Source of the DNA: Fervidobacterium pennivorans DSM 9078
GTDB taxonomy: Bacteria; Thermotogota; Thermotogae; Thermotogales; Fervidobacteriaceae
DNA: 64,000 bases
Assembly: GCF_000235405.2 (NCBI RefSeq)
Contig: NC_017095.1
Coordinates: 707,501-771,500, forward strand
Direction: 5' to 3'
Each line of letters opens with the position of its first letter. Positions within the stretch are counted from its first letter, which is position 1. This document shows positions 35,827 through 45,124 of the stretch, in pieces. A model generated the notes under the pieces. The model was given only the letters and a program-made list of their open reading frames with translations. It did no database searches and was not told where the DNA came from. Made by a program: the position numbers and the translations under genes.

Positions 35827-36741
35827 TCACACGTCAAAAACATTCATAGATAAATACTTGCTGCCTCCGTCAGGTAAAATAACGACAACTCTTTTACCTT
35901 TTCCAAGTTTTTCTGCAACTTTCAGTGCACCGACCATAGCCGCTCCAGAAGAAATACCCACGAACAATCCTTCTTCCTTCGCAAGTCTTCGAGTCATCTC
36001 GAAAGCTGATTCATCACTAACAGTTACGACTTCGTCAATAACATCTCTGTTGAGAATCTTTGGAATGAACCCGGGACCTATTCCTTGAATTTTGTGCGGA
36101 CTGTGTGTTCCACCTGACAGAAGCGCAGACTTTTCAGGCTCTACAGCGACTATCTTCACACCTGGTACCTTTTCTTTGAGAACTTCACCAACACCTGTTA
36201 TCGTTCCGCCAGTTCCAACCCCTGCTACAAAAGCATCGATCTTTCCGTCCATATCTCTGAGAATTTCTAGCGCTGTAGTTTCCCTATGTGCCAGCGGATT
36301 GTATTTATTTTCAAACTGCAGTGGCATAAAATACCCATTTTCTCGAGCAAGTTGCTCTGCTACACGAATAGCTCCGGTCATACCTTCACTTGCTGGAGTA
36401 AGTATAATCTCAGCTCCGTACGCCTTAAGAACTTGTCTTCTTTCAACGCTCATAGATTCGGGCATAACTATTATCAGCCTGTAACCTTTCGAAGCGCATA
36501 CAAGCGCTAGCCCAATACCCGTGTTTCCACTTGTCGGTTCGATAACAGTCCCACCAGGCTGCAACAAACCTTCTTTCTCAGCTCCTTCAATCATATAAAG
36601 AGCTATCCTGTCTTTGATACTACCACCTGGGTTAAAGTACTCAAGTTTTGCGTAAACTTCGGCACAGTTTTCACAAGTAAGTTTACTTATTTTCACAATT
36701 GGCGTATTTCCTATAGTTTCATAAATTCTCTCGAAAACCAT
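35827..36741 (-). CDS. cysK: Cysteine synthase A (O-acetylserine sulfhydrylase)
   Basis: 304 residues, PLP fold type [16 protein letters not shown] contains the PLP lysine; [19 protein letters not shown] and [18 protein letters not shown] bind substrate and phosphate. It forms cysteine from O-acetylserine and sulfide. It is first of a cysK-cysE operon. The minus-strand promoter is TTGTCA (36818-36813), 17 bp, TATAAT (36795-36790). Confidence 0.95.
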
Positions 36742-36789
36742 CTTAAATCCCCCTTTTAAGGTGTAACCTGACTTAGTCTATCCTAATTT

Positions 36790-36818
36790 ATTATACAGCA
36801 CAAATTTATTTTTGACAA
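36790..36818 (-). promoter_or_regulatory. cysK-cysE promoter
   Basis: Minus strand TTGTCA, 17-bp spacer, TATAAT, about 50 bases upstream of the cysK start. Confidence 0.7.
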
Positions 36819-36913
36819 TAGGATACGTTAAAAATATCTCAAAACAGTGAGTATATGAAAGATAATGGAACTTATTTTCTGAATTTACAAAAAAGCGGTC
36901 AAAATACAACTTG

Positions 36914-36956
36914 TTGTGAACTTTATCACAATAAGTTATTGTGCTAGAATTATAAT
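36914..36956 (+). promoter_or_regulatory. Rex-type operator and promoter of bcd-etfBA
   Basis: TTGTGAACTTTATCACAA (36914-36931) is a perfect TTGTGA-N6-TCACAA inverted repeat, the pattern bound by the NADH-sensing repressor Rex. A second perfect palindrome overlaps it, CACAATAAGTTATTGTG (36927-36943). The -10 TATAAT is at 36951-36956, so the sites cover the -35 region. Repression when NADH is low fits an NADH-consuming or acyl-CoA redox operon. Confidence 0.8.
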
Positions 36957-36999
36957 GTGAGAGTTGATTCAGTTTTTTCTTTGAATCGGGGTGAAAACT

Positions 37000-38142
37000 A
37001 TGGACTGGAATTTTACTAAAGAACAAGAGATGGTCAGAAAAATCGTGAGAGATTTCGCAGAAAAAGAGATAAAACGGTATGCGAAGGTTATCGACGAGAC
37101 TGAAGAGTTTCCTTGGGAAAATGTTAGAAAAATGGCGCAAGCGGAGATGTTTGGGATACCGTATCCGAAAGAATACGGTGGAGCTGGCGGAGATTACATA
37201 AGCTACATAATAACAGTTGAAGAGATTTCAAGAGCTTGTGCTTCGACGGGAGTTATCCTCTCAGCGCACACATCACTTGTGGGTTATCCACTCTATCAAT
37301 ACGGGACCGAGGAACAAAAAAGGAAGTATTTAATCCCCGTAAACAGAGGTGAAAAGCTTGGTGCATTTGCACTCACAGAACCGAACGCAGGTACAGATGC
37401 TGGAAATCAGCAGACGACTGCTGTTCTGAAAGGAGACCATTACGTTCTCAACGGTTCGAAAATATTTATAACCAACGGTGGAGTTGCGGATATCTATATC
37501 GTCTTTGCTATGACTGACAGATCAAAAGGGACGAAAGGAATAAGTGCGTTCATTGTTGAAAAAGGATTCCCAGGATTTTACATTGGTAAATACGAAAAAA
37601 AGATGGGAATTCGAGGTTCAAAAACGGCAGAACTTATCTTTGACGACTGTATAGTTCCAAAAGAAAACCTCCTCGGAAAAGAGGGAGACGGATTTAAGAT
37701 AGCGATGTCGACACTCGATGGTGGAAGAATTGGAATAGCTGCTCAAGCTCTCGGAATAGCTCAAGCTGCTTTGGATGAAATTTTGAAATACGTAAAAGAA
37801 AGGCAGCAATTCGGAAGGCCAATAGGAAAATTCCAAGGACTCCAATGGTACATCGCTGAAATTGCAACAAAAGTCCAGGCTGCAAGGCATTTAGTCTACA
37901 ACGCAGCGTGGCGGAAACAGAACAATTTGCCTTATTCAATGGAAGCTTCTATGGCAAAATTGTTTGCTTCGGAAACAGCTATGGAAGTTACAGTTAAGGC
38001 TGTTCAAATATTCGGTGGCTACGGCTATACAAAAGACTCAACGGTCGAAAGACTTATGAGAGATGCCAAGATAACAGAAATCTACGAAGGTACTTCCGAA
38101 GTTCAAAAGATGGTTATATCAGCTAACCTTTTAAAGATCTGA
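37000..38142 (+). CDS. bcd: Acyl-CoA dehydrogenase (butyryl-CoA dehydrogenase type)
   Basis: 380 residues from the ATG at 37000 (GGGGTGA upstream). Signatures: LGAFALTEPNAGTDAGNQQTTA, FITNGGVADIYIVFA, MGIRGSKTAELIFDD, and the catalytic region IYEGTSEVQKMVI with Glu. An FAD enzyme of acyl-CoA redox metabolism. It is followed by etfB and etfA, its electron carrier, under a Rex-type operator, typical of anaerobic butyryl-CoA dehydrogenase-Etf operons. The acyl chain specificity is not certain. Confidence 0.92.
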   Translation: MDWNFTKEQEMVRKIVRDFAEKEIKRYAKVIDETEEFPWENVRKMAQAEMFGIPYPKEYGGAGGDYISYIITVEEISRACASTGVILSAHTSLVGYPLYQYGTEEQKRKYLIPVNRGEKLGAFALTEPNAGTDAGNQQTTAVLKGDHYVLNGSKIFITNGGVADIYIVFAMTDRSKGTKGISAFIVEKGFPGFYIGKYEKKMGIRGSKTAELIFDDCIVPKENLLGKEGDGFKIAMSTLDGGRIGIAAQALGIAQAALDEILKYVKERQQFGRPIGKFQGLQWYIAEIATKVQAARHLVYNAAWRKQNNLPYSMEASMAKLFASETAMEVTVKAVQIFGGYGYTKDSTVERLMRDAKITEIYEGTSEVQKMVISANLLKI

Positions 38143-38153
38143 GGTGATAAGCT

Positions 38154-38930
38154 ATGAACATAGTAGTTTTGATTAAGCAAGTTCCAAATACTGCAGAAAT
38201 TAAGATAGATCCCGTTACCAAAAACCTCATAAGAGATGGTGTTCCGAGTATTATCAATCCCGAAGATAAGAACGCTCTTGAAGAAGCTTTAAGAATTAAG
38301 GAAAAATTCGGCGGAAAAGTTACGGTTGTTACTATGGGACCTGCTCAAGCTGAAGAAGCTTTAAGAGAAGCTTTAGCAATGGGAGCTGATGAAGCGGTTC
38401 TTTTATCAGACAGGTTTTTTGCAGGTGCGGATACCTACGCAACTGCAAAAACGCTTTCGGCTTTTCTAAAGACAGTAAGCTATGACCTTATTCTCTGCGG
38501 ACGTCAAGCTATAGACGGCGATACCGCTCAAGTTGGTCCTCAAGTTGCGAACAAACTCGGAATTCCGCAAGTTACGTACGTCAAATATATAGAGATCGAC
38601 GGTGATACAGTAACGGTAAAAAGAACACTGGAGGATGGATACGAATTAATAAAAGTGAAAATGCCCGTACTTTTAACCGTAACAAAAGAGCTAAATACCC
38701 CAAGATATCCAACTATTCGTGGTATCTTTGAAGCTTATCAAAAAACTATAAGAGTTGTAACAGCACAAGATCTTGGATTAAATCCTGAAGAGATAGGTTT
38801 AAAAGGTTCACCAACAAGGGTTGTAACAATTATAACTCCCGAACATCAAAGGGAAACTGAAATACTCACGGGCGGAACTAAGGAAGTTGTGAACCGACTT
38901 GCTGAGAAAGTCCTGTCAGCTCTAAAGTGA
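38154..38930 (+). CDS. etfB: Electron transfer flavoprotein beta subunit
   Basis: 258 residues. INPEDKNALEEALRIKEKFGGKVTVVTMGPAQAEEALREALAMGADEAVLL and LILCGRQAIDGDTAQVGPQVANKLGIPQVTYV are characteristic. It binds the second nucleotide or flavin of Etf and pairs with EtfA. The ATG lies 11 bp after bcd with GAGGTGA. Intact, but its partner gene is truncated downstream. Confidence 0.95.
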   Translation: MNIVVLIKQVPNTAEIKIDPVTKNLIRDGVPSIINPEDKNALEEALRIKEKFGGKVTVVTMGPAQAEEALREALAMGADEAVLLSDRFFAGADTYATAKTLSAFLKTVSYDLILCGRQAIDGDTAQVGPQVANKLGIPQVTYVKYIEIDGDTVTVKRTLEDGYELIKVKMPVLLTVTKELNTPRYPTIRGIFEAYQKTIRVVTAQDLGLNPEEIGLKGSPTRVVTIITPEHQRETEILTGGTKEVVNRLAEKVLSALK

Positions 38931-38945
38931 TTTGAGGTGATAAAT

Positions 38946-39809
38946 ATGAGTAAAGATATTTGGATATTTGCCGAGCAAAGAAACGGAATTTTAATGAACT
39001 CAAGTCTTGAAATACTCGGAGAAGCGAAAAGACTTGCAGAAAAATCAGGTTCAAAAGCTTGCGCAGTTTTAATAGGTAATAACGTCTCGCAACTTTCGCA
39101 AGAGCTTATCAACCACGGTGCCGACATCGTTTATTTGATACAAGATCCTCTTCTAGAAAAATACTCAACGGATGGTTATTCAAAAGTTTTTGTAGACCTT
39201 GCTAAAGAATACCAACCGAATGTAATACTATTTTCAGCCACTCACATCGGTAGAGATCTGGCACCAAAGATAGCTTCTCAACTTCACACAGGGCTAACAG
39301 CTGACTGTACGAAACTTGATATAGACGAAGAAGGTAATTTACTCCAGACGCGTCCAGCTTTTGGTGGCAATATTTTAGCAACTATTAAATGTCCTGAAAA
39401 AAGACCGCAGATGGCAACTGTAAGACCGGGAGTTATGCAAAAATTACCGAAAGAAGAAAGAAAAGGCGAAATAATAGAGATAAAACCAAAGATATCAAAA
39501 GAAGACATTAGAATTGAAATTGTTGACGTTGTCAAAGAAATAGCCAACGCTGTTAAACTCGAAGAAGCCGAAGTAATCGTTTCAGGCGGACGAGGTCTTG
39601 GAGGTCCTGAAGGTTTCAAACTTCTTGAAAAACTTGCAAAGCTTTTAGGCGGTTGCGTCGGCGCTTCAAGAGCTGCTGTTGAAGCTGGTTGGATTTCTTA
39701 CGACCACCAGATTGGCCAAACAGGAAAGACTGTGAGACCGAAGGTATATATTGCTTGCGGAATAAGCGGAGCGCTGCAACACGTTGCAGGGGATAGTGTT
39801 AACTTGTAG
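38946..39809 (+). pseudogene. etfA: Electron transfer flavoprotein alpha subunit, C-terminus cut off by an IS
   Basis: The frame runs from ATG 38946 to a stop inside IS copy B. Native sequence covers ~282 residues (IWIFAEQRNGILMN, SATHIGRDLAPKIASQL, VSGGRGLGGPEGFKLLEKLA, YDHQIGQTGKTVRPKVYIACGISGALQHVAG). The last six codons derive from the IS. About 50 C-terminal residues of the FAD domain expected in the family are missing. EtfA probably cannot hold FAD properly, unless another copy exists elsewhere. Confidence 0.92.
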
Positions 39810-40850
39810 TGATGAAAGAGTGTAATTGTGAAAGAATGCGATTGATATTGCCATTGTGCGTTTTCCAAAGATTCTTCACTACACAAAATCCTTGAATATA
39901 TTTCGCTAAGTTCTTCGTATTCTTCAGCCCTCGCTTGAGTCGGAAAAAGTCTTTCAACAATGAAAACTTAGATTCACATTGATTGTTTTTACCGAGCGGT
40001 ACCACTACGTGATTGATATTTCTGAACAACAGCTTTACTGCACTTTCATATGCACCAAGTCCATCAGTAATAAGTTCAATGTTTCTAGGTTTTGAATTAC
40101 CAAAGAACTTCTCGAGCAATACTTTGACTTGTCCCATATCACGATACTTTGAGACATGCCAACAAAGAATTAAGTTAGTTTCGTGATCAACTAATAGCCA
40201 AACATAGTACTTTTGTTCTTTGAACACAAGAACAGTTTCATCAGCATGAACTGAGAAAACATTTTCGATGGTAAATGTTGGAAAAAGTACAGAGAATAAA
40301 GTACACAATTTAATAACCCATTTGTATATGGTGACATGAGATACTTTGATATTAAGAGAATGAGCAAGAGAGCGATAAGACATATTGTGTTTCATATACA
40401 AAACGAAAGCCTTTAAGACGAAAAAGATAGGGAAGCGGAAGTATTTAAATTTCTCAGGAATAAGGGTGACTGGTTCGGGGAGGTTAAAAGGTACTCTATC
40501 TTTGGTACGACAAGCTCTACAACGGAAGACAACGAAAGAGCGACGGACTTTGTAAATTTGCATAGATTTACCACAAGAAGTGCATTTGGGATAAGGGAAA
40601 GGGAAGTTTTTGCGTTTTTGAGAATGGGAGAGTTTGAAAGAATGATGGCAGAGTTTGCAAAGGAATTGTTGGTTACCGTATTTGTCATGACCGTTTTTGT
40701 ATAAGCTGGTGGAACCGCATTTTGGACAAGAGAGCGTTGAGTTGTTCATATCGGGATACCTCCTTTGTCGAGAGTTGGTTGGGGGGTGTCCCCTCTTTAT
40801 AAGGATAATGCAGTTTTTGGAAAGTTTCAATACTTTTAGTTAACATTATC
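39792..40850 (-). mobile_element. IS element copy B, at a rearrangement junction
   Basis: 1,059 bp with the same terminal repeats as copy A. The left flank is etfA (TTGCAGGG) and the right flank is the leader of a lipoprotein gene (AGGAAAAG); no target duplication joins them. The two sides were therefore brought together by recombination or an IS-mediated deletion or inversion. Confidence 0.92.
39799..40749 (-). CDS. IS transposase, copy B
   Basis: 316 residues, same protein as copies A and C within the frame from ATG at 40749: N-terminal zinc ribbons and a DDE core (HADET, ITDG, CESKF). Silent changes distinguish the copies. Confidence 0.88.
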   Translation of the reverse strand: MNNSTLSCPKCGSTSLYKNGHDKYGNQQFLCKLCHHSFKLSHSQKRKNFPFPYPKCTSCGKSMQIYKVRRSFVVFRCRACRTKDRVPFNLPEPVTLIPEKFKYFRFPIFFVLKAFVLYMKHNMSYRSLAHSLNIKVSHVTIYKWVIKLCTLFSVLFPTFTIENVFSVHADETVLVFKEQKYYVWLLVDHETNLILCWHVSKYRDMGQVKVLLEKFFGNSKPRNIELITDGLGAYESAVKLLFRNINHVVVPLGKNNQCESKFSLLKDFFRLKRGLKNTKNLAKYIQGFCVVKNLWKTHNGNINRILSQLHSFITTS

Positions 40851-40873
40851 AGGAAAAGGAAAGGAGGGTTAAC

Positions 40874-42346
40874 ATGAAAAAATTGTTTTGGAAGGTATTG
40901 GTTTTGTTTTCGCTTTTGATAACATTAAGTTGTACTCAACAAACAACAAGTATTTCTGAATTTACAAGTATTTCTGAATTTAATATATCCATAAGTCCTG
41001 CAACCGATTTAACGATTTCTCAAGGAGGAAGCGAAAGCATAACGCTTACAGTAGAAAGAAGAAACTTCGATCAACCAATCATGTTAAGTTTAGAAGGTGC
41101 ACCAAACGGGATAACTTTAAGTGCAACGAGTGTTGAAGGAAATGAGAAAACAAAACAGCTAACGATATCAGTATCATCAAGTGTGCCAGTTGGAACATAT
41201 AACATGGAAATAAGGGCGAGTGGTGGTGAAATTACTAGAACAGCGAATATTACGGTTACAGTTGTGACTCCAGGACTTGCAAACAGCCCCTGGCCAATGT
41301 TTAGAGGAGATCCACAACACACAGGAAGGAGCAAATATATTGGATCACAAGTTGCAAACGTGAAATGGTATTATCAAACCAATAATAGAATTTTTTATTC
41401 TTCTCCAGCAATAGGCCCTGACGGAACAATATATATTGGATCAGATGACGGGAATCTCTACGCTATAAATCCCAATGGAACTTTAAAGTGGAAGTATACT
41501 ACCATTATTCCTATCACCTCCTCTCCAGCGATAGGCTCAGACGGTACAATATATGTTGGATCATGCGACTATCTCTGCGCTCTAACTCCCAATGGAAGTT
41601 TAAAATGGAAGTATACTACCGATAGTTTGATCTTCATCTCCTCACCTGCGATAGGCTCTGACGGTACAATATATGTTGGATCAGAAGACGGAAATCTCTA
41701 CGCTATAAATCCCAATGGAACTTTAAAATGGAAGTATACTACCGATGGTTTTATCCATTCTTCCCCAGCGATAGGCTCTGACGGTACAATATATGTTGGG
41801 TCACATGATGGAAATCTTTACGCTATAAATCCCAATGGAACTTTAAAATGGAAGTATACTACCGGTTATCCGATCTGGTCCTCTCCAGCGATAGGCTCTG
41901 ACGGTACAATATATGTTGGATCATGGGACAAAAATCTCTACGCTATAAATCCCAATGGAAGTTTAAAATGGAAGTATCCTACCGGTGATGAGATCACCTC
42001 CTCCCCAGCGATAGGCTCAGACGGTACAATATATGTTGGATCAGTCGACGGAAATCTCTACGCTCTAAACCCAGATGGAACTTTAAAATGGAAATATAAT
42101 ACCTATGCTGCTATTCAATCCTCTCCAGCAATAGGCTCTGATGGTTCAATTTATTTTGGATCTTATTCACTTGTATTTGAATCAGGATACTTTTATTGCC
42201 TAAACCCAAGTGGAACTTTGAAATGGAAGACTTCTATAGGTTCATCTGGAACTTATTATGGAACCTATTCGTCGCCTGCAATAGGTGCAGATGGAACGGT
42301 ATATATCGGTGCTTTAGATGGAAGACTATACGCAATTGGAGACTGA
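40874..42346 (+). CDS. PQQ-like beta-propeller lipoprotein with Ig-like domain
   Basis: 490 residues. Signal peptide with lipobox (VLFSLLITLSC) so a lipid-anchored outer protein. A tandem TSISEF TSISEF follows, then an Ig-like domain (residues ~35-135, LTISQGGSESITLTVERRNF) and PWPMFRGDPQHTGRS, typical of PQQ-propeller proteins. Eight repeats of ~40 residues follow (SSPAIGSDGTIYVGS, NLYAINPNGTLKWKYTT). There are no dehydrogenase catalytic residues, so it is structural or binding, not a PQQ enzyme. IS copy B lies 23 bp upstream and has replaced the promoter. Confidence 0.88.
   Translation: MKKLFWKVLVLFSLLITLSCTQQTTSISEFTSISEFNISISPATDLTISQGGSESITLTVERRNFDQPIMLSLEGAPNGITLSATSVEGNEKTKQLTISVSSSVPVGTYNMEIRASGGEITRTANITVTVVTPGLANSPWPMFRGDPQHTGRSKYIGSQVANVKWYYQTNNRIFYSSPAIGPDGTIYIGSDDGNLYAINPNGTLKWKYTTIIPITSSPAIGSDGTIYVGSCDYLCALTPNGSLKWKYTTDSLIFISSPAIGSDGTIYVGSEDGNLYAINPNGTLKWKYTTDGFIHSSPAIGSDGTIYVGSHDGNLYAINPNGTLKWKYTTGYPIWSSPAIGSDGTIYVGSWDKNLYAINPNGSLKWKYPTGDEITSSPAIGSDGTIYVGSVDGNLYALNPDGTLKWKYNTYAAIQSSPAIGSDGSIYFGSYSLVFESGYFYCLNPSGTLKWKTSIGSSGTYYGTYSSPAIGADGTVYIGALDGRLYAIGD
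41390..42325 (+). repeat. Near-identical 120-bp coding repeats, gene 1
   Basis: Units of exactly 120 bp (for example starts near 41761, 41881, 42001) repeat CCAGCGATAGGCTCTGACGG with few changes. Variation is concentrated in short segments after KWKYTT and after VGS. Confidence 0.85.
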
Positions 42347-42394
42347 AACTTGAGGTGCAAAATTATTATTTGTATCACTTGAAAGAATTTGCTG

Positions 42395-42428
42395 AATCCT
42401 TCGGTGGAACACACCGAAGGATTTAATT
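42395..42428 (+). terminator. Terminator after lipoprotein gene 1
   Basis: A 12-bp stem, AATCCTTCGGTG (42395-42406) with CACCGAAGGATT (42412-42423), then TTAATTTA. A copy is at 44544-44577. Confidence 0.88.
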
Positions 42429-42858
42429 TACACGTTTTGTTTCCTCCCCAAAATTCTTTTTGTTCTGCTGAAGAGTGTTACTAAACAAACGATCAGCAGT
42501 GCAACAACCGTTCCAAAACCAGCTCCTGTCATGTCGATTATAACATCGTTCAACGATGAACCGCGGTTGTAAAAAAGCTGGTTGTATTTGTCAAGATCTG
42601 CTTCCAGAAAGAGCTGAGAAAATAACTCTTTTGAGTTTGTGGGTTTCTTTAAGTGCGTAAAACAAGACAAGTGTAGTAAGAAACCCAAGTCCGAAATAGA
42701 GTCCAAAATGATTTTCTAAGAAGCATCTCAGTTGGAACGTATTCGGTCTTGAACCGCCAGTGTTTTAATTTTGTTTCTAAAGAGATAAACCATCTTGTGT
42801 TTGAAAAATCTACTATGCTGTCAATCTTTTTTAGTGTGCGGTAAACAAACCTTGCCTG
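42428..42858 (-). pseudogene. VanZ-family gene remnant, copy 1
   Basis: The C-terminal VanZ-like part (DKYNQLFYNRGSSLNDVIIDMTGAGFG and a last transmembrane helix) is readable but the upstream part is in other frames, and the gene is cut at the duplication end (42858). It shares the frameshifts described for the copy at 44577-45124. Confidence 0.75.
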
Positions 42859-43322: not shown

Positions 43323-44495
43323 ATGAAAAAATTGTTTTGGAAGGTATTGGTTTTGTTTTCGCTTTTGATAACATTAAGTTGTACTCAACAAACAACAGTT
43401 ACAGTTGTGACTTCAGGACTTGCAAACAGCCCTTGGCCTATGTTTAGAGGAGATCCACAACACACAGGAAGGAGCAAATATATTGGATCGCAAGTTGCAA
43501 ACGTGAAATGGTATTATCAAACCAATAATAGAATTTTTTATTCTTCTCCAGCAATAGGCCCTGACGGAACAATATATATTGGATCATCAGATATTGAATC
43601 ATCAACCGCAAATCTCTACGCTATAAATCCCAATGGAACTTTAAAATGGAAGTATACTACTTTAGGTGATTCTATCTGGTCCTCTCCAGCGATAGGCTCT
43701 GACGGTACAATATATTTTGGAGCAGGTGACAACAATCTCTACGCTATAAATCCCAATGGAACTTTAAAATGGAAGTATACTACCGGTAGTGATATCTGGT
43801 CCTCTCCAGCGATAGGCTCAGACGGTACAATATATATTGGATCAGATGACAACAATCTCTACGCTATAAATCCCAATGGAACTTTAAAATGGAAGTATAC
43901 TACCGGTGGTAATATCCACTCCTCTCCAGCGATAGGCTCTGACGGTACAATATATGTTGGGTCACATGATGGAAATCTTTACGCTATAAATCCCAATGGA
44001 ACTTTAAAATGGAAGTATACTATCGATGATCTTATCGATTCTTCCCCAGCGATAGGCTCTGACGGTACAATATATGTTGGATCATGGGACGGAAATCTCT
44101 ACGCTATAAATCCAGATGGAACTTTAAAGTGGGAGTATAATACACCCCTTATTCCTATCATCTCCTCCCCAGCGATAGGCTCTGACGGAACAATATATAT
44201 TGGATCAGTAGACGGAACTCTCCACGCTATAAATCCCAATGGAAGTTTAAAATGGAAGTATACTACCGATGGTTTTATCGAGTCTTCCCCAGCGATAGGC
44301 TCAGACGGGGCAATTTATTTTGGATCATGGGATACTGGATCTGAATCAGGATACTTTTATTGCCTAAACCCAAATGGAAAATTGAAATGGAAGACTTCTA
44401 TAGGTTATGGAACCTATTCGTCGCCTGCAATAGGTGCAGATGGAACGGTATATATCGGTGCTTTAGATGGAAGACTATACGCAATTGGAGACTGA
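43323..44495 (+). CDS. PQQ-like beta-propeller lipoprotein, paralog without Ig-like domain
   Basis: 390 residues. The signal peptide and lipobox are identical to the paralog at 40874, but CTQQTT joins directly to VTVVTSGLANSPWPMF, so the ~105-residue Ig-like domain is lost. Eight propeller repeats follow with different variable segments (GDSIWSS, GSDIWSS, GNIHSS, DLIDSS). Extracellular or periplasmic; ligand unknown. Read with its neighbour it suggests repeat shuffling after duplication. Confidence 0.87.
   Translation: MKKLFWKVLVLFSLLITLSCTQQTTVTVVTSGLANSPWPMFRGDPQHTGRSKYIGSQVANVKWYYQTNNRIFYSSPAIGPDGTIYIGSSDIESSTANLYAINPNGTLKWKYTTLGDSIWSSPAIGSDGTIYFGAGDNNLYAINPNGTLKWKYTTGSDIWSSPAIGSDGTIYIGSDDNNLYAINPNGTLKWKYTTGGNIHSSPAIGSDGTIYVGSHDGNLYAINPNGTLKWKYTIDDLIDSSPAIGSDGTIYVGSWDGNLYAINPDGTLKWEYNTPLIPIISSPAIGSDGTIYIGSVDGTLHAINPNGSLKWKYTTDGFIESSPAIGSDGAIYFGSWDTGSESGYFYCLNPNGKLKWKTSIGYGTYSSPAIGADGTVYIGALDGRLYAIGD
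43535..44475 (+). repeat. Near-identical 120-bp coding repeats, gene 2
   Basis: The same 120-bp units as in gene 1 (starts near 43801, 43921, 44041), including stretches identical to units of gene 1, which suggests gene conversion or recombination between the two genes. Confidence 0.85.
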
Positions 44496-44543
44496 AACTT
44501 GAGGTGCAAAATTATTATTTGTATCACTTGAAAGAATTTGCTG

Positions 44544-44577
44544 AATCCTTCGGTGGAACACACCGAAGGATTTAATT
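44544..44577 (+). terminator. Terminator after lipoprotein gene 2
   Basis: The same 12-bp stem as after gene 1 (44544-44555 with 44561-44572), followed by a T-rich run. Confidence 0.88.
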
Positions 44578-45124
44578 TATACGTTTTGTTTCCTCCCCAA
44601 AATTCTTTTTGTTCTGCTGAAGAGTGTTACTAAACAAACGATCAGCAGTGCAACAATCGTTCCAAAACCAGCTCCTGTCATGTCGATGATGACATCGTTC
44701 AACGATGAACCGCGGTTGTAAAAAAGCTGGTTGTATTTGTCAAGATCTGCTTCCAGAAAGAGCTGAGAAAATAACTCTTTTGAGTTTGTGGGTTTCTTTA
44801 AGTGCGTAAAACAAGACAAGTGTAGTAAGAAACCCAAGTCCGAAATAGAGTCCAAAATGATTTTCTAAGAAGCATCTCAGTTGGAACGTATTCGGTCTTG
44901 AACCGCCAGTGTTTTAATTTTGTTTCTAAAGAGATAAACCATCTTGTGTTTGAAAAATCTACTATGCTGTCAATCTTTTTTAGTGCGCGGTAAACAAACT
45001 TTGCCTGCCTTTCGGATTCTTGCGGAAGGCTTGATGAAAAGTAAAAAATCATGCCGATCCACAGAAGCACAGCTACAATTAAAACTGCGTACACAACGCT
45101 TCTAACCTTGACTTTCAATTTCAT
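44577..45124 (-). pseudogene. VanZ-family membrane protein gene with two frameshifts
   Basis: The first frame from 45124 gives an N-terminal membrane helix (VVYAVLIVAVLLWIGMIFYFSSSLPQ). Near 44862 the typical HFGLYFGLGFLTTLVLFYAL continues in a second frame. Near 44755 a third frame carries DKYNQLFYNRGSSLNDVIIDMTGAGFG, the VanZ signature. Two indels therefore separate otherwise good VanZ sequence. Its start overlaps the DUF4129-like gene by 23 bp, so it once ended that operon. Function of VanZ proteins is poorly defined. Confidence 0.75.

Follow-up and report, generated by a model that had tools for sequence, protein, structure and literature searches.

A bcd-etfB-etfA operon of Fervidobacterium pennivorans DSM 9078 is preceded by two perfect palindromes that share five bases, which raises the question of which regulator, or regulators, this promoter answers to. 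The window (the whole stretch of 64,000 nucleotides that was analysed) carries TTGTGAACTTTATCACAA at 36914-36931 and CACAATAAGTTATTGTG at 36927-36943, with CACAA (36927-36931) in common, exactly as the sequence-only reading had described them. That reading took the first palindrome for a Rex operator, and the second for room for another Rex dimer or a competing regulator. The evidence below indicates that the first palindrome is very probably the Rex operator of bcd-etfB-etfA, that the operon is acquired, and that the overlapping palindrome is probably no second operator.

The main site and the predicted promoter

The main site reads TTGTGA-ACTTTA-TCACAA, a perfect 6+6 inverted repeat with an N6 spacer, and its first base lies 86 bp before the ATG of the bcd-like gene at 37000 (Table 1). 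On a matrix of related sites, for which the native comparison sites were collected independently of the window, 36914 ranks first among all positions of the 64 kb (15.4, against 10.6 for the next), and 0.0012 matches as good are expected per 249-bp stretch of the same composition. On separate matrices, the site scores 20.7 for rex1 sites (leave-one-out range of these sites, 9.6-21.8) and 16.0 for bcd/hyd sites (range of these sites, 17.8-23.6), which indicates a closer likeness to the rex1 sites. It also matches 13 of the 14 letters of the general Rex consensus TTGTGAANNNNTTCACAA, in the form in which this is quoted in PMC6391272.

Table 1. Features of the bcd promoter region and its neighbours, in window coordinates
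Feature	Positions	Strand	Basis or remark
Divergent PLP-dependent enzyme, cysK-like (name by resemblance)	35827..36741	-	ORF
Possible weak auxiliary Rex-type site ACGTTAAAAATATCTCAA	36825..36842	.	bcd/hyd matrix, 10.8
Putative Rex-type operator TTGTGA-N6-TCACAA (main site)	36914..36931	.	Top matrix match in window
Predicted -35, TTATCA	36923..36928	+	Promoter scan; within Rex-type site
Overlapping perfect palindrome CACAATAAGTTATTGTG = CACAATAA-G-TTATTGTG	36927..36943	.	Probably not a separate operator
Predicted extended -10, TGTG-C-TAGAAT	36940..36950	+	Promoter scan; 16-nt spacer from -35
Acyl-CoA dehydrogenase (bcd-like), horizontally acquired	37000..38142	+	ATG start by analogy with Thermoanaerobacter; listed ORF from GTG 36991
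etfB	38154..38930	+	ORF translation
etfA, C-terminus cut by insertion sequence	38937..39809	+	290 aa vs 334-335
Insertion sequence, IS240-type DDE transposase	39792..40851	-	Two further copies of this element at rex1

Given the position of the predicted -35, the Rex-type site covers it. TTGTG at 36939-36943 sits 1 nt 5' of TAGAAT (36945-36950), and the TG that the promoter scan finds before the -10 makes this third TTGTG the TGTG of the extended -10. A location over the -35 is shared with the Firmicutes Rex sites at S. mutans rex and adhE and at T. saccharolyticum adhE, in the passages of PMC3441419 and PMC5886521 that deal with them. A Rex dimer bound at high NAD+ would occupy the -35 region ahead of bcd-etfB-etfA, thereby blocking RNA polymerase. 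A rise in NADH would then release Rex and allow expression of the operon, which is able to spend reducing power.

The closest structural parallel comes from Thermotoga maritima Rex (TM0169), for which PMC8836258 gives a crystal complex with the TM0201 operator TTGAGAAATTTATCACAA. The crystal operator is like the window site an 18-bp inverted repeat with a 6-nt spacer, and the right half, TATCACAA, is identical in the two. The left half is TTGTGA in the window and TTGAGA in the crystal operator. The window site differs from the T. maritima Rex operators in its target, a horizontally acquired bcd-etfBA. Section 2.2 of PMC8836258 has Arg60 and Gly61 touching Thy4 and Thy3, which are half-site positions 2 and 1 in the numbering of the present analysis.

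Counts of the pattern are uninformative on their own. The 2.17-Mb genome has a single exact copy of the 12-base palindrome, along with seven one-mismatch relatives that lie mostly within coding regions, and the reversed control pattern also has one exact copy, so the count alone is no proof. Across 20 family genomes there are 13 exact TTGTGA-N6-TCACAA sites and six of the reversed control; the argument for Rex sites therefore rests on location, not number. Six of the 13 precede rex1, and one each precedes the window operon, a Fe-alcohol dehydrogenase gene and a gene whose sequence looks 2Fe-2S thioredoxin-like and of the hydrogenase type, while the other four are in coding, terminator-like or unclear places. 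Each of the five WYGTGA-N6-TCACRW sites in this genome lies close to the 5' end of redox or fermentation genes (bcd1, bcd2, two hydrogenase operons and glutamate dehydrogenase). The site before the glutamate dehydrogenase gene is TTGTGAAGGGTATCACAT (L218:1501-1518; G000:C1:1407967). Pattern counting as proof of a regulon was rejected, since the reversed control gives equal numbers of matches, and the fact that counts in this genome do not exceed that control speaks against the Rex reading.

The second palindrome and doubled sites in the family

The left arm of the 17-bp palindrome is the right half-site of the Rex-type site, and its right arm is the extended -10 region. Its half-sites face outward (CACAA...TTGTG); those of Rex sites face inward. 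On the bcd/hyd matrix, scores stay at or below -3 throughout 36920-36945, and the matrices yield no second inward-facing site sharing bases with 36914-36931, such as a tandem overlapping Rex operator would have. A palindrome of this kind is not rare by itself, since 34 perfect palindromes in the window have arms of 8 or more and a spacer of at most 8 (nested ones counted repeatedly), five of them with a spacer of 1. In simulation, a non-concentric palindrome overlaps the site by at least 4 bp in 0.7% of random flanks; with the TTGTG before the -10 fixed, the figure is 9.6%. A role of the palindrome in RNA was rejected, as it lies upstream of the predicted transcription start. An Rfam search of 36500-37300 gives 0 matches.

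Doubled Rex-type sites are real in the family as far as the motif matches go, but their geometry is other than the overlap that had been proposed. Two GTGA-N6-TCAC sites lie exactly 61 bp apart and bracket the native bcd promoter in all six Fervidobacterium genomes with the gene (L046, L037-L040, L045). At other native bcd orthologs, the two sites are 56, 50, 51 and 68 bp apart (L041, L043, L044 and L127, respectively); of the two sites in L042, one is strong and the other weak. Six more distant bcd loci (L128, L129, L131-L134) have weaker and more variable matches, and L130 and L135 have no site match. Rex-type sites are thus conserved at the promoters of the native paralogs, in an arrangement that differs from that of the window site. 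Matrix matches also precede the hydrogenase genes in most of the 17 hydrogenase/rex2 loci (16 relatives and this genome). Counted by eye, ten of the 17 (L202, L204-L209, L211-L213) have a 32-bp double operator, comprising two sites 14 bp apart that share ACGT, just after the -10, and nine have a further site 56 bp upstream. In G005, the identical 18-mer ACGTGATATTATTCACAA precedes both the bcd and the hydrogenase genes. At the rex1 loci, a TTGTGA-type site occurs 42-70 bp before the first profile-matched codon in 17 of 19, the misses being the broken rex1 of L148 and this genome. Two Rex sites per promoter are known in Firmicutes, and the relevant passages of PMC3441419 and PMC5886521 call their meaning unclear; those passages on S. 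mutans and T. saccharolyticum do not describe an overlapping outward palindrome as in the window.

It is quite improbable that both palindromes are operators, with the shared CACAA contested by a pair of Rex dimers or by Rex and another regulator. The perfect 8-bp arms and the low chance of such an overlap in random flanks argue for it, as do the overlapping Rex-type sites at the relatives' hydrogenase promoters. These sites, however, overlap by the 14-bp offset and the shared ACGT, and the simulated chance is higher once the TTGTG beside the -10 is taken as given. TTGTG comes 4-10 nt after a Rex site in just three of the 20 family genomes, G002 among them at its hydrogenase site, against one of 20 for the reversed control, and the arrangement is repeated at none of the native bcd promoters compared. 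The proposal that another Rex dimer could fit here, or that a different regulator competes, accordingly finds no footing in half-site direction, matrix score, the native bcd promoters or the right arm. The second palindrome is most likely incidental to the promoter and no second switch. A possibly better, though weak, partner for the main site is ACGTTAAAAATATCTCAA, which lies 89 bp upstream of it and is the second-best bcd/hyd matrix match in the 64 kb, with 0.0125 matches of its score expected per 249 bp.

Rex genes, the acquired operon and rival regulators

A Rex homolog, on whose presence the proposed operator depended, is found twice in the genome, which was searched as a single contig of 2,166,381 bp. 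The two genes encode both Rex domains (HTH and Rossmann, with NCBIfam Rex matches): rex1 (L001) with 214 aa, and rex2 (L002) with 231 aa, which overlaps the end of an Fe-hydrogenase gene. The Rex HTH family has at least one match in every one of the 20 family genomes searched. Rex1 matches T. maritima Rex (PDB 5zz5) with an E value of 4e-66, and the DNA-contact residues Arg48, Lys49, Arg60 and Gly61 are kept. The wing motif is GKRG in every intact Rex1 listed and GKPK in all listed Rex2 proteins except one with GRPK. In L148 (G009) and L155 (G018), rex1 is seemingly broken or truncated, as translation from the matched start yields 13 and 68 aa, respectively.

In this genome, two nearly identical tandem copies of one insertion sequence lie directly upstream of rex1 (L178:542-2666; G000 about 909541-911665). 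Comparison with G003 shows that the rex1 promoter-operator is intact but moved beyond both copies (site at L178:2698), with a short duplication of target DNA. Rex1 is probably not autoregulated here, and the displaced promoter may alter its level. This separation of rex1 from its own promoter counts against the Rex reading.

The window bcd shares 82-84% identity with its counterparts in Thermoanaerobacter and in a related Clostridia bin. A tree of 35 selected rows places it among these (support 100/99), away from the native copies of Thermotogota. Among 103 genomes of the phylum at E 1e-100, the window copy occurs only in this genome; identity does not exceed 71% in the other Thermotogota matches, and the native bcd copy of this genome is 70% identical. 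No ortholog of the operon was found in the sister species searched. By tree position and identity, bcd-etfB-etfA is horizontally acquired from a Thermoanaerobacter-like source. The closest relatives found of the three genes belong to the Rex-encoding butyrate cluster rex-crt-bcd-etfB-etfA-hbd of Thermoanaerobacter wiegelii (L049). There, bcd follows crt and has no promoter of its own, whereas the window bcd has a predicted promoter and stands without rex, crt and hbd. The DNA similarity to donor-like loci is limited to 37012-39790, so the promoter and operator do not come from the operon as it stands in Thermoanaerobacter. Footprinting against Thermoanaerobacter was rejected: the upstream alignment is spurious, with crt upstream of a donor bcd that lacks its own promoter. 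A search of the window for the rest of the etfA C-terminus, for hbd and crt and for a donor rex turned up none of them, and the intergenic DNA of the window, searched in relatives, gave nothing beyond short chance matches. The cysK-like gene has no match at E 1e-100 in eight other genomes of the genus, so a foreign island may make up the whole neighbourhood. At 40874-42706 and 43323-44855 there is a nearly head-to-tail duplication of a repeat-rich protein of secreted type, together with the small ORF that follows it.

The last gene, etfA, has lost about 50 C-terminal residues to the insertion sequence, so in this strain Rex control may have become partly vestigial. The stronger form of this idea, that the operator is now a functionless relic, would be helped further by the two tandem insertion sequences between rex1 and its operator-promoter. 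It is unlikely, however, as the bcd and etfB frames are intact, the native etfA (334 aa) could partner their products, and rex2 is intact. The other rival is a regulator of the CRP/FNR family. The classical CRP consensus is TGTGA-N6-TCACA, and the genome encodes a protein of 231 aa that combines a cNMP-binding domain with a Crp-like HTH domain. With TATAAT at 36951-36956 as the -10, the site centre would lie near -41, where such a protein could act. A Glu in the recognition helix reads CRP sites, but the helix of the encoded protein reads TRPALSR and is not of the RETVGR type. TATAAT 36951 also has no acceptable -35, and the promoter scan picks TAGAAT 36945. The motif in the relatives occurs at rex1, hydrogenase and alcohol dehydrogenase genes, which is the pattern of Rex, and control by CRP/FNR is very improbable. 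The reading of the main site as a Rex-type operator is supported by an inverted repeat over the promoter of a redox/fermentation gene, by the two Rex genes, and by a family-wide motif at the rex, hydrogenase and bcd promoters that are the relatives' putative Rex targets.

Two possible operator dialects

The sites of the family differ at half-site position 2. None of 14 distinct rex1 sites has C there, and 16 of 19 distinct bcd/hyd sites do, in a comparison that excludes two sites picked by a C-containing pattern. One of the three exceptions, in G018, has a GKPK-type Rex2 next to it. Since the sites share common descent, the Fisher p for this difference (1e-6) is overstated. The wing of Rex1 can be tied to half-site positions 2 and 1, because Arg60 and Gly61 touch those bases in the T. 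maritima crystal. It is conceivable, if rather doubtful, that the Rex paralogs read two operator dialects split at position 2. Rex1 (GKRG) would read TTGTGA, and the site of Rex2, whose wing is GKPK and whose gene is part of the hydrogenase operon, would be WCGTGA, in many cases within the 32-bp double operator; the acquired bcd would be under the Rex1 dialect and the native bcd under the Rex2 dialect. Split Rex specificity or overlapping Rex operators in Thermotogales do not appear in the titles and abstract openings of the literature searched.

The main site is very probably an ordinary Rex operator, yet it would show a foreign fermentation operon placed under the redox switch of the host family. 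If the dialects are real, one enzyme pair would answer to two redox switches, and in this strain the Rex1 switch itself is cut off from its own promoter by two insertion sequences. This gives a testable idea for a family of H2-producing thermophiles, in which the DNA specificity of the Rex paralogs may be split and double operators conserved at the hydrogenase and bcd promoters.
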